DNA of 64,000 bases from NCBI RefSeq assembly GCF_947496195.1, contig NZ_CANMBY010000001.1, positions 806,001-870,000 on the forward strand. The letters are read 5' to 3'. Source of the DNA: an uncultured Polaribacter sp. GTDB taxonomy: Bacteria > Bacteroidota > Bacteroidia > Flavobacteriales > Flavobacteriaceae. The notes below the pieces were generated by a model. That model was not told the origin of the DNA. It did no database searches and saw only the letters and a program-made list of their open reading frames with translations. Made by a program: the position numbers and the translations under genes. This document shows positions 41,628 to 45,646 of the stretch, piece by piece (position 1 is the first letter of the stretch; each line of letters opens with the position of its first letter).

Positions 41628-42116
41628 ATGGATATTAAAGAAATTCAAAATCTTATAAAATTTGTAGCAAAATCTGGCGCAAGCGAGGTAAAGTTAGAAA
41701 TGGAAGATGTGAAATTAACAATTAGAACAGGCTCAGGTAAAACAGAAACAACTATTCTACAAGCTTCTCCTGTAGCAAGTATGCCTCAAGTACAGGCAGC
41801 ACCAGCTCCTGTTGCTCAACAGCCAGCAGCTGAGCCAGCAGCTCCTGTAAAAAATGATGCTAATGACGATGCTAATTACGTTACTGTAAAATCGCCAATT
41901 ATTGGAACATTTTATAGAAAACCTGCTCCAGATAAACCAAATTTTGTTGAAGTTGGTTCAGACATTTCTGCTGGAGATACAGTTTGTGTTATTGAAGCTA
42001 TGAAATTATTTAATGAGATAGAATCTGAAGTTTCTGGTAAAATTGTAAAAGTTTTAGTTGATGATTCTTCACCAGTTGAGTTTGATCAACCTCTATTTTT
42101 AGTAGATCCATCTTAA
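41628..42116 (+). CDS. accB: Biotin carboxyl carrier protein of acetyl-CoA carboxylase
   Basis: This is a 162-residue protein. An N-terminal assembly segment (about 1-40), an Ala/Pro/Gln-rich linker (about 45-80) and the biotinyl domain with K126 in EAMKLFNE are visible. The motif is AMKL where many have AMKM, a common variant. It is 24 bp after fabH. Confidence 0.95.
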   Translation: MDIKEIQNLIKFVAKSGASEVKLEMEDVKLTIRTGSGKTETTILQASPVASMPQVQAAPAPVAQQPAAEPAAPVKNDANDDANYVTVKSPIIGTFYRKPAPDKPNFVEVGSDISAGDTVCVIEAMKLFNEIESEVSGKIVKVLVDDSSPVEFDQPLFLVDPS

Positions 42117-42188
42117 TTTTAGATTATTAGATTTTTAGTAATAAAATATCTAGCAATTAAGTAGTTAAAATAATCAAAATTCTAAAAG

Positions 42189-43529
42189 ATGTTTAAAAAA
42201 ATATTAATTGCCAACAGAGGAGAAATAGCTCTACGTGTTATTAGAACCTGTAAAGAAATGGGTATAAAAACTGTTGCTGTTTACTCTAAGGCAGATGCTG
42301 AAAGTTTGCATGTTAGGTTTGCTGATGAAGCAGTTTGTATTGGACCTGCACCAAGTAGTGAATCTTACTTAAAAATGGCAAATATTATTGCAGCAGCAGA
42401 AATTACAAATGCAGATGCAATTCATCCTGGATATGGTTTTTTATCTGAAAATGCTAAATTTTCTACTCTGTGTGAAGAACACGATATTAAATTCATAGGT
42501 GCTACAGGTAAAATGATAGATCAGATGGGAGATAAGGCTAATGCTAAAGCTACAATGAAAGCTGCAGGCGTGCCATGTGTTCCTGGTTCAGATGGTGTAA
42601 TCACTGACTTTGAAGAATGTAAAAAAGTTGCATTAGAGACTGGTTATCCAGTAATGTTAAAAGCTTCTGCAGGTGGTGGAGGTAAAGGAATGCGTGCTGT
42701 TTGGAAAGAAGAAGATTTAAAAGATGCATGGGATTCTGCAAGACAAGAGAGTAAAGCTGCTTTTGGAAATAACGATATGTATATGGAAAAGCTTATTGAA
42801 GAGCCAAGACATATAGAAATACAAATCGTTGGAGATGCATATGGTAAAGCATGTCATTTGTCTGAAAGAGATTGTTCTGTACAAAGACGTCATCAAAAAC
42901 TAACAGAAGAAACTCCATCTCCATTTATGACAGATGAGTTAAGAGAAGCTATGGGTAATGCAGCTGTTAAAGCAGCAGAATTCATAAAATATGAAGGAGC
43001 AGGGACTGTTGAGTTTTTAGTAGATAAGCATAGAAATTTCTACTTTATGGAGATGAATACTCGTATTCAAGTAGAGCATCCAATAACAGAAGAAGTTGTA
43101 AACTACGACTTAATTCGTGAACAAATATTAGTTGCTGCTGGAGTGCCAATTTCAGGTAAAAACTATTATCCACAATTACATTCAATTGAGTGTAGAATTA
43201 ATGCAGAAGATCCTCATAATAACTTTAGACCTGCACCAGGTAAAGTAACATCATTTCATGCACCTGGAGGTCATGGAGTAAGAATGGATACTCATGTGTA
43301 TGCAGGTTATATGATTCCACCAAATTACGATTCTATGATCGCTAAATTAATTGTAACAGCTCAAACTAGAGAAGAAGCAATTAATAAAATGAAGAGAGCT
43401 TTAGATGAGTTTATTATTGAAGGAATTAAGACAACAATACCATTTCATAGACAATTAATGGATCATCCAGATTATGTTTCTGGTAATTATACCACAAAAT
43501 TTATGGAAGATTTTAAAATGGAGTCTTAA
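42189..43529 (+). CDS. accC: Acetyl-CoA carboxylase, biotin carboxylase subunit
   Basis: This is a 446-residue ATP-grasp enzyme that carboxylates the biotin on AccB. It shows [30 protein letters not shown], the glycine-rich ATP loop ([11 protein letters not shown]), [25 protein letters not shown] and RINAEDP. It is 72 bp after accB, with AT-rich sequence between, and ends at a terminator. Confidence 0.97.
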
Positions 43530-43617: not shown

Positions 43618-44067
43618 ATGAAAATTGATGGAATAGATAAAATAATCATAAGAAGATTAGTTAAAGATGCCAGAACTCCTGTTTTAAGTATTGCTAGAGA
43701 AGTAGGTATATCTGGTGCAGCTATTCATCAAAGATTAAGAAAATTAGAAAAATCAAAACTAATAGACGGCTATAAAATGGTCATTAATCCTAAGGCTTTA
43801 GGATATACAACTGCAGCTTTTATTGGTATTTTTTTAGATTCTTCAAGTTTGTATTCTTCAGCTATAAAAAGATTAAAAGAAATTCCCGAAGTTGTAGAAA
43901 GTTATTATACAACAGGTAATTATGCAATTTTTGTAAAAATTCTATGTAAAAATAACGAAGATTTAATGCATCTTTTAAATAGAGATATACAAGGTATTAA
44001 AGGTGTTTCTAGAACAGAAACATTTATATCTTTAGATCAGCAAATTGATAGACAAATTAGCATATAG
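43618..44067 (+). CDS. Lrp/AsnC family transcriptional regulator
   Basis: This is a 149-residue protein. An N-terminal winged helix-turn-helix (about 4-55, ARTPVLSIAREVGISGAAIHQRLRKLEK) is followed by the RAM/ActD effector domain (about 65-145, TTAAFIGIFLD, ESYYTTGNYAIFVKI). The family binds amino acids and regulates metabolic genes. There is no adjacent obvious target; fabH-accB-accC lies just upstream, but a terminator intervenes. Confidence 0.93.
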   Translation: MKIDGIDKIIIRRLVKDARTPVLSIAREVGISGAAIHQRLRKLEKSKLIDGYKMVINPKALGYTTAAFIGIFLDSSSLYSSAIKRLKEIPEVVESYYTTGNYAIFVKILCKNNEDLMHLLNRDIQGIKGVSRTETFISLDQQIDRQISI

Positions 44068-44182
44068 TTAATTATCTATTAATTTAAACGACTTAAAGCT
44101 CTAATGTTACCATTTATCAAATAAAAATTAGATTTTTAATTTAAAATTCTCATATTTGAAGTTAAATTTCCCCAACATAAAA

Positions 44183-44587
44183 ATGAAAGCACTTTCAATT
44201 CTTTTAGTTGAAGACGATGAAATAATAAGATTAAAGTTTAAAAAGGTTTGTAAAAACCTTAAAGCTAATCATAGTGTTGTTGAAGCAGAAAATGGAGAAA
44301 AAGGTTTAGCTGTTTTAGCAAATCATCATTTTGATTTAATTATTTCTGATTTAAAAATGCCTGTCATGAATGGTATTACATTTATTAAAAATGTAAAAAA
44401 AGATGACAGATTTAAAAAAATCCCTTTGGTAGTAATGACAACTTCTGAAGAAGAAGAAGATATGCAACAGTGTAATAATTTATGTGTTGATGGGTATTTT
44501 CTAAAATCTTTAAACTTTAAAAAATACGAACAAGAGGTCATTTCTATTTTAGACTATTGGAGCACGAAAGAAAAAGTAATTTCTTAA
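44183..44587 (+). CDS. Stand-alone CheY-like response regulator
   Basis: This is a 134-residue receiver domain from the ATG at 44183. The phosphorylation site D56 (IISDLKMP), the acidic pair D11/D12 (VEDDE), the Thr switch (MTTS, 86-87) and K108 (YFLKSL) are all in place. It has no output domain. It is followed by an Hpt protein 12 bp downstream and a LytTR regulator, so it is probably the first receiver of a phosphorelay. No histidine kinase is nearby. Confidence 0.92.
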   Translation: MKALSILLVEDDEIIRLKFKKVCKNLKANHSVVEAENGEKGLAVLANHHFDLIISDLKMPVMNGITFIKNVKKDDRFKKIPLVVMTTSEEEEDMQQCNNLCVDGYFLKSLNFKKYEQEVISILDYWSTKEKVIS

Positions 44588-44599
44588 ATTTATTTTTTT

Positions 44600-44914
44600 A
44601 TGGAGAAACCTAATATGCAAGTTATTGAGGAGATTTCTGGTAATGATGAAGATTTTAAAAAAAACTTATTAGAAATAATTAAAAAAGAATTTTCTAAAGA
44701 GTTTGAAAACTATAATCATAGCTATCTTAAGAAAGATTTTGAAGAAGCATCTGAGTGTGTGCACAAGTTAAAACATAAAATTTCTCTTTTAGGTTTTAAA
44801 GAAGAATTACAAAAAGCAGCTTTATTTGAGAAAGAAGTAAAGAAAGGTAATTTAGAATTACATGAAAATTTTATTGATACTTTAAACAAAATTAATGTAT
44901 ATTTATACGATTAG
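44600..44914 (+). CDS. Histidine phosphotransfer (Hpt) domain protein
   Basis: This 104-residue helical protein has the Hpt signature H55-x-x-K58 in VHKLKHKISLLG, so H55 is the likely phosphate carrier. It would shuttle phosphate between the receiver upstream and the LytTR regulator downstream. Spacing is 12 bp and 24 bp, consistent with one operon. Confidence 0.88.
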   Translation: MEKPNMQVIEEISGNDEDFKKNLLEIIKKEFSKEFENYNHSYLKKDFEEASECVHKLKHKISLLGFKEELQKAALFEKEVKKGNLELHENFIDTLNKINVYLYD

Positions 44915-44938
44915 TAACCTAAAGAGTATATTTAAGTA

Positions 44939-45646
44939 ATGAAATGTATTATTGTAGATGATGATGAAACTGCAAGACTAATTCTAAAACAACACTGTTT
45001 AAACACCTCTAACTTACAGGTTTTATCAGAATTCAGCTCAGCAATTGATGCCATAAAATACTTGAATTCTAATGATGTGGATTTAATCTTTTTAGATATC
45101 CATATGCCTTCATTTTCTGGGTTCGATTTTATAAAAACACTTAGTAAATCACCAAAAATAGTATTAACTACTTCAGATAAAAACTTAGCTCTTGAAGCTT
45201 TTGAGTTTAAAAATGTAATAGATTACTTAGTTAAACCAATAACAAAAGAAAGATTTGAAAAATCTTTCGAAAAAGTAGTTTCTTTATCAAAAACAGAAGA
45301 TTCAACAAATACAAAAGAGAATTTAAATAAAAAATCTGATTATTTATATGTAAGTGTAGATAGAAGGTTAGTTAATGTACATATTCCTAGTATATATTTA
45401 ATAGAAGCAAAAGGAGATTATATAAATATTAAAACTGATGGGAAAAACTACATAGTTCATTCAACATTAAAAAAGATTGAAGATAAATTACCTGAAGAGT
45501 TGTTTTTTAAAGTTCACAGGTCTTTTATTATTAATACTTCTGAAATTGTAGATATAGAAGATAATAGTGTAGTTGTAAGAAAAGAAGTAGTGCCAGTTAG
45601 TAGATCTAATAAAGGAATTTTAATGGATAAGTTAAACTTATTGTAA
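44939..45646 (+). CDS. LytTR-type DNA-binding response regulator
   Basis: This is a 235-residue protein. The receiver domain (about 1-115) has D7-D9, D53 (LDIHMP) and K99 (YLVKP). The LytTR domain (about 132-235) shows YLYVSVDRRLVNVHI, IEAKGDYINI, KVHRSFIIN and VPVSRSNK. LytTR proteins bind direct repeats phased with the DNA helix. Just downstream lie four GTT words spaced 11-12 bp apart, a candidate site. Confidence 0.94.
   Translation: MKCIIVDDDETARLILKQHCLNTSNLQVLSEFSSAIDAIKYLNSNDVDLIFLDIHMPSFSGFDFIKTLSKSPKIVLTTSDKNLALEAFEFKNVIDYLVKPITKERFEKSFEKVVSLSKTEDSTNTKENLNKKSDYLYVSVDRRLVNVHIPSIYLIEAKGDYINIKTDGKNYIVHSTLKKIEDKLPEELFFKVHRSFIINTSEIVDIEDNSVVVRKEVVPVSRSNKGILMDKLNLL

Follow-up and report, generated by a model that had tools for sequence, protein, structure and literature searches.

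In the Spo0F-Spo0B-Spo0A phosphorelay, a separate phosphotransfer protein stands between receivers and is served by one or more kinases in trans. Small GTPases are encoded together with histidine kinases in other described systems. Rup Group 1 was described in 2014 from sequence and comprises a coiled coil, a protein with an unknown domain, a Ras-family GTPase whose G3 motif is without the catalytic Gln, and a protein for signalling output; in some cases the latter is a histidine kinase, and its N-terminal region then contains an invariant Gln (Wuichet and Sogaard-Andersen, PMC4316618). According to the part of that description considered here, the unknown-domain protein is "often" followed by a TM helix and an OmpA domain, an optional feature, and no Rup interaction had been characterised (PMC4316618). 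The actinobacterial conservons encode MglA, the roadblock protein MglB and a kinase that ends in LPxR and, as far as the sections considered describe them, no response regulator (PMC13343842, PMC4316618). Among the open-licence papers listed in our searches, none dealt with an Hpt-LytTR relay in Polaribacter or with a link between Rup and Hpt. Here we analysed a Polaribacter locus encoding a stand-alone receiver (REC), an Hpt protein and a LytTR response regulator, and judging from sequence comparisons this trio probably forms the output side of a phosphorelay that is fed by a kinase encoded in trans, a Rup-type GTPase-linked hybrid kinase.

The kinase-less trio and its relatives

The window, the whole stretch of 64,000 nucleotides that was analysed (contig C1:806001-870000), contains the gene order accB-accC-Lrp-REC-Hpt-LytTR on the + strand (Table 1), in which the three trio ORFs are tightly packed, at spacings of 12 and 24 bases. 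REC starts with ATG at 44183, and a TTG start at 44156 is likewise open. Upstream of the trio, no clear promoter or LytTR site was seen by eye. The window had been predicted to be without a histidine kinase, and none of the 24 HATPase_c matches of the genome falls there; two of the 26 receiver matches of the genome do, and both are trio genes. The Pfam score of the Hpt protein is weak by sequence (E 5.6e-4, under the 24.6 cut-off). Its AlphaFold model, built from three sequences, is helical with a pLDDT of 92.6, and the top solved-structure matches by Foldseek are Hpt domains (Shewanella 3myf, BarA 3iqt and P. aeruginosa HptB 7c1i, the last at TM 0.81), with modest E-values of which the best is 1.3e-2. 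A profile of 22 relatives searched against the PDB gave the Hpt domains 1sr2, 3myf and 3iqt together with one other chain, 8qah, at E 0.018-0.26. The phosphotransfer residues, all said to be in place in the original prediction, were confirmed at their positions and are invariant: H55 in 26/26 trio-locus Hpt, D56 in 16/16 REC and D53 in 22/22 full-length LytTR sequences, counts from which an Hpt and a REC of the L272 stretch, both unrelated to the trio, are excluded. The Hpt histidine, whose loss of function had been named as evidence against the prediction, is thus kept at all 26 loci.

Table 1. Location and properties of the trio genes, their neighbours and related genes elsewhere in the genome (C1, C2 and C3, contigs; L, fetched stretches)
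Feature	Location	Strand	Properties
Stand-alone receiver REC	window 44183-44587	+	134 aa; phospho-acceptor D56; Pfam Response_reg 79.1 bits
Hpt phosphotransfer protein	window 44600-44914	+	104 aa; H55; Pfam Hpt 20.5 bits
Receiver + LytTR DNA-binding response regulator	window 44939-45646	+	235 aa; D53; Pfam LytTR 71.3, Response_reg 63.6 bits
Lrp/AsnC-family regulator	window 43618-44067	+	directly 5' of REC; Pfam AsnC_trans_reg 60.4 bits
accB + accC (acetyl-CoA carboxylase)	window 41628-43529	+	housekeeping anchor marking the locus in relatives
Soluble hybrid kinase	G000 C2:398550-400073		507 aa; HisKA, HATPase, receiver; H148, D439
REC-HNOX-PAS kinase-FIST-kinase-Hpt-LytTR cluster	C2, about 99.7-105 kb (L056:4679-10072)		two likely gas sensors in one operon
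REC-PAS/GAF kinase-Hpt cluster	C3 (L057:1-6754)		after cbb3 oxidase assembly-like genes (ccoG-like; by eye)
Four tandem hybrid kinases	C2:418745-425567 (L097:6746-13568)		53-58% identity to first copy; hydrophobic N-terminal regions; no Hpt or regulator seen beside them in L097

The accC-linked locus was found in 25 other Polaribacter-type genomes, and at 24 of these 25 no kinase was found beside it in the 8-18 kb stretches scanned. Among 36 same-genus genomes, our own included, 16 carry accC-linked Hpt loci, eleven of them as REC-Hpt-LytTR, three as Hpt-LytTR (G013, G016, G021) and two as Hpt alone (G019, G023). The two lone Hpt genes follow Lrp (L085:8070-8396 in G019, L079:7353-7694 in G023) and keep their His. 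Ten further named genomes among the matches listed have accC-linked Hpt-LytTR, five of the ten without REC. Altogether, REC was not found in 8/24 accC-linked loci having LytTR; at the G470 locus a 0.5-kb gap between accC and Hpt could hide unrecognised remnants. The sole kinase found beside any of the 26 loci is that of G458, a hybrid sensor of more than 1300 aa that begins 0.7 kb downstream of a trio whose LytTR is divided between two ORFs (L275:5639-11001); in G454 a receiver-like ORF lies downstream of the locus on the opposite strand. Lrp is present at 24/26 loci, and both loci at which it was not found retain Hpt-LytTR; it is probably a conserved neighbour outside the relay. No H-NOX or FIST gene was found at the trio locus, either in our genome or at the 25 other loci. 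The original prediction had set against itself the case of a kinase conserved beside the trio in relatives and rearranged here. Such a local rearrangement was rejected as the origin of the missing kinase, because within the 8-18 kb stretches a kinase adjoins just one of the 26 loci (G458) and is not conserved at the others; the locus recurs without a kinase across the relatives, and the kinase-less state is therefore old and stable.

The genome also has two paralogous clusters that do contain kinases (Table 1), and by sequence the trio is a paralogue of these REC/H-NOX/FIST/kinase/Hpt/LytTR clusters. The cluster kinases have no receiver of their own in Pfam. In FastTree trees, the 22 trio LytTR sequences all form a group of their own apart from the cluster paralogues (support 0.99). 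The 16 REC sequences do likewise (0.82), as do the 26 Hpt sequences (0.81), apart from a very distant outlier Hpt (L310); these Hpt and REC groups hold in unrooted trees, and the midpoint-rooted Hpt and REC trees do not separate the trio. Variants of the two-sensor cluster (H-NOX and the NosP-like FIST) are present in many of the relatives from which stretches were fetched, and in G024 (L086) a cluster copy with H-NOX sits after genes of a size similar to those preceding the C3 cluster. A second, tandem Hpt-LytTR pair in which the Hpt has Phe replacing the phospho-His was seen at L080:9144-10242, and another divergent Hpt/REC gene pair at L058:4934-5799 lies beside a HEAT-like protein and a glycosyltransferase-like gene (by eye).

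A hybrid kinase operon that accompanies the trio

Five candidate kinase or sensor families of our genome were compared over the same 59 relatives. The original prediction had called for a search for an orphan hybrid kinase whose distribution over species follows that of the trio, and a candidate was found on contig C2: it is present at E < 1e-150 in 14 of the 36 same-genus genomes, which are exactly the 14 having accC-linked Hpt-LytTR, and the other 22 gave no match at E <= 1e-60. The association has a Fisher value of 2.6e-10 on the assumption of independent genomes, which they are not, and because the kinase-positive genomes may be one clade, the 14/14 match may reflect few events. The profiles of the GAF kinase, H-NOX, FIST and the tandem hybrid kinases over the same genomes do not match that of linked Hpt-LytTR, and for this mismatch the H-NOX/FIST kinases, the GAF kinase (C2:77742) and the tandem hybrid kinases were rejected as universal donors.

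Joint decay was also seen, in that the three genomes without an intact kinase among the 16 with accC-linked Hpt are the three without an intact LytTR (G016, G019, G023), which has a probability of 1 in 560 by chance and corresponds to two events on the tree. Stop codons lie in both the kinase and LytTR genes of G016 and its REC is gone; this case is weaker than it looks because other G016 genes, e.g. its GAF-kinase copy, decay too. In G019 and G023, which are nested as sisters of G026 (support 0.90, accB+accC tree), kinase, REC and LytTR are jointly absent. G458 keeps the hybrid kinase although its LytTR is split. Each of the eight Hpt-LytTR loci without REC belongs to a genome that has the kinase gene, albeit a broken one in G016, as would be expected if the kinase brings its own receiver. 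On the accB+accC tree (FastTree), the absence of REC maps to about six branches that retain the kinase gene (broken in G016), a number that is approximate because several supports of this tree are below 0.5.

In a scan of named species at least 19 genomes carry the hybrid kinase, four of which are apparently the G004, G006, G026 and G060 assemblies; this set was selected for the kinase and so tests the kinase-to-trio direction only. Thirteen of the 19 kinase-positive genomes listed have accC-linked Hpt-LytTR. Four show no trio: in Flavicella sediminum the sole Hpt match lies in an H-NOX cluster that includes LytTR, and the other three are MAGs, of which one has Hpt-LytTR at a contig edge. In two uncultured Flavobacteriaceae (L173, L176) the complete kinase operon lies directly upstream of a REC-PAS kinase-Hpt-LytTR module, which begins 138 bases after the hybrid kinase on the same strand; the PAS kinase belongs to the module itself, whose REC, Hpt and LytTR lie outside the trio groups. 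From 17 kinase-negative controls, 14 Hpt loci were fetched, weak matches in G061, G064, G065 and G075 and second matches of others being left out; none of the 14 is accC-linked and 10 are in kinase-containing clusters. The negative status of these controls rests on a family-wide search in which three candidates per genome were scored, so that some kinases may be missed among the 397 genomes, two of which (one of them ours) gave the kinase. Hpt-LytTR pairs unlinked to accC and with no kinase seen beside them are present in G002, G003 and G011, which are without this hybrid kinase.

The kinase has no membrane-helix-like stretch (top 19-residue hydropathy 1.28) and so can meet a soluble Hpt. Its D439 is kept in 32/34 aligned rows, the exceptions being the broken G016 copy and L178, which has an aberrant tail. 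It is the last gene of an operon of a coiled coil (113 aa), a protein of about 269 aa (P269), a Ras-family GTPase (161 aa) and the hybrid kinase, an order that is kept in our genome, 13 relatives (kinase broken in G016) and G060, apparently a Flavicella. The coiled coil was judged from weak, below-cut-off Pfam matches to coiled-coil families. The GTPase matches PF00071 with 113.4 bits, and all 33 sequences have the P-loop and NKxD and, in G3, D[VI]AG[TV] without the catalytic Gln. Q106 is present in the N-terminal region of the kinase in 33/34 rows, the remaining row being a fragment without this region. By the published description, this operon, including the GTPase, fits Rup Group 1 at the level of sequence, with Q106 as a candidate counterpart of the invariant Gln. 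The upstream regions of the kinase operons have a TATATTTG-type element in common, which we take to be a Bacteroidota promoter.

In the model of P269 (L161:4670-5479 and orthologues), residues 144-269 take up a longin fold, and eukaryotic longin domains often act together with Rab/Arf GTPases. The best of the listed matches of this C-terminal half in VIA-align is Sec22b (Z 12.5, rmsd 2.9, 119 aligned residues), and the Foldseek matches also include roadblock proteins (Ragulator subunits, MglC); as the model has a mean pLDDT of 54, the longin fold serves as a lead. The P269 profile found no convincing relative among PDB sequences (best E 0.18). No OmpA domain was matched in P269, nor was there a membrane-helix-like stretch (top 19-residue hydropathy 1.24).

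Evolutionary rates were compared in partial Mantel tests with accB + accC removed, and then also fabH and one or two neighbours. The sample was 21 genomes, or 20 without G006, with 13-14 for REC and 18-19 for Lrp; it excluded G016 with its broken LytTR and kinase, G458 with its split LytTR, G467, whose kinase ORF is short, and the two genomes without the kinase, G019 and G023. The kinase, GTPase and P269 correlated with REC at r 0.55-0.74, with Hpt at 0.29-0.47 and with LytTR at 0.22-0.50, so that REC, where present, has the strongest rate link to the kinase among the trio genes; Lrp, the direct neighbour of the trio, showed no shared signal with them (r -0.47 to -0.04). The coiled-coil gene of the operon gave 0.43-0.49 with REC and weak values of 0.05-0.26 with Hpt and LytTR. 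For a control sigma-factor gene near the kinase, the values were 0.36-0.40 (REC), 0.21-0.35 (Hpt) and 0.24-0.47 (LytTR), and for the controls MBL, NonA and another neighbour 0.26-0.41 with LytTR. Since control genes correlate with LytTR, the LytTR signal is not specific; the signals that stand out are those of REC and, to a lesser degree, Hpt. The kinase receiver, the predicted contact of Hpt, correlated weakly with it (r 0.13, p 0.15), below the kinase core (r 0.42).

A possible relay and the rival readings

The observations are the genes themselves, the conserved phospho-residues, the co-occurrence, the joint loss and breakage, and, in two genomes, a kinase operon that lies next to a paralogous module; from these we infer each phosphotransfer step, the control by the GTPase and the role of REC. 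In the proposed scheme, the GTPase module would control autophosphorylation of the soluble hybrid kinase, and phosphate would pass from kinase H148 to its own receiver D439, then to Hpt H55 and on to LytTR D53, after which the phosphorylated regulator would change transcription. The stand-alone REC may exchange phosphate with the kinase, the Hpt or both, as a dispensable side branch or sink. As some six branches have no REC but still have the kinase gene, REC is probably a side branch, and the receiver of the hybrid kinase would make REC optional here; in the paralogous clusters REC would be essential. The original prediction had offered a distant hybrid kinase, or a stand-alone receiver charged by several kinases, as the entry point of phosphate. 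The former is favoured by the co-occurrence, and we hold it with moderate confidence; a relay obligatorily starting at REC fares badly, REC being missing in eight loci, and REC as the only route is unlikely.

Other donors have to be weighed against this hybrid kinase. Because trio and clusters are clear paralogues with the same REC-Hpt-LytTR chain, which in the clusters lies beside non-hybrid kinases, and both occur in our genome, where cross-talk would be possible, the trio might be a second output of the gas-sensing clusters, with the non-hybrid kinases of C2 and C3 phosphorylating REC and, through it, Hpt and LytTR. We regard this as unlikely: G005, G013, G021 and G026, four of the 14 genomes with linked Hpt-LytTR, encode neither H-NOX nor FIST and have no GAF-kinase-like kinase at E <= 1e-30, and REC, the sole acceptor in such a scheme, is the gene missing from a third of the linked loci with LytTR. 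Slightly less likely again is a LuxU-like hub, as in Vibrio, in which REC and Hpt would gather phosphate from several kinases, among them the Rup-type kinase and the tandem membrane hybrid kinases. Few Hpt genes were found besides the trio (two cluster paralogues and one other) against six hybrid kinases read, which would suit a shared acceptor, but the tandem kinases (best E < 1e-180) are present in 5/14 genomes with linked Hpt-LytTR and also in three without it (G011, G020, G032).

It is also conceivable that the trio is what decay has left of a kinase-containing cluster, with no present function. REC has disappeared from about six branches, the LytTR gene is broken in G016 and divided in G458, and G019 and G023 retain Hpt only. 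Against this, none of the compared copies deviates at the phospho-residues, LytTR is full-length in 22/26 loci (Hpt being present in 26/26 by definition of the set), and identities to the Hpt and LytTR of the window, 32-54% and 61-75% respectively, show that both were kept over long divergence; decay therefore seems very improbable to us. Returning to the hybrid kinase in trans, a bolder version can be put forward tentatively, and we would give it somewhat less than an even chance: a Rab-like GTPase, controlled by a longin-fold partner as in eukaryotic membrane traffic, may gate the soluble hybrid kinase and through it the orphan Hpt-LytTR pair. This would be a pathway from a G protein to gene expression and the first candidate for a Rup Group 1 output; REC would be a tunable sink, taken over from a relay that senses nitric oxide.

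Comparison with described systems

The proposed relay differs from Spo0F-Spo0B-Spo0A by its LytTR output and by the extra stand-alone receiver, which is often lost. With LuxU-LuxO, as treated in the part of the source considered, it has in common a separate phosphotransfer protein between receivers and one or more kinases in trans, and the same LytTR output and dispensable extra receiver set it apart (PMC6769237). To the H-NOX/NosP (FIST) relays, of which the Vibrio LuxU case is one, the likeness lies in the paralogous REC, Hpt and LytTR genes beside H-NOX, FIST and kinase genes in our own genome, whereas the trio of the window has no adjoining H-NOX, FIST or kinase gene and 4/14 linked genomes are without either sensor (PMC6769237, as far as its account was available). 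The trio also appears to illustrate how an operon-encoded relay may lose its kinase and be rewired to one encoded elsewhere.

In the actinobacterial conservons (AGPS), as in the candidate kinase operon, the gene of a small GTPase accompanies those of a histidine kinase and of a protein resembling a GTPase regulator; here, in contrast, the GTPase is Rup-like, the partner has a predicted longin-like fold and the hybrid kinase has its own receiver (PMC13343842, PMC4316618, in the sections considered). No LPxR motif was found at the C-terminus of the kinase, whose sequence ends in the receiver domain. The likeness to Rup Group 1 extends to all four genes, counterparts of which are present in the candidate kinase operon (PMC4316618). 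P269 differs from the unknown-domain protein of that description in being without OmpA and without a membrane-helix-like stretch, and in the longin-like C-terminal half of its model (PMC4316618). The description, in the part considered, proposes no Hpt/LytTR output, whereas in our genome the Hpt-LytTR pair of another locus is a candidate for it (PMC4316618). Tying Rup Group 1 to a defined and purifiable relay would make Rup function directly testable. The relay type is already known, and no account of its proposed link to a Rup-type GTPase operon was found among the open-licence papers searched.
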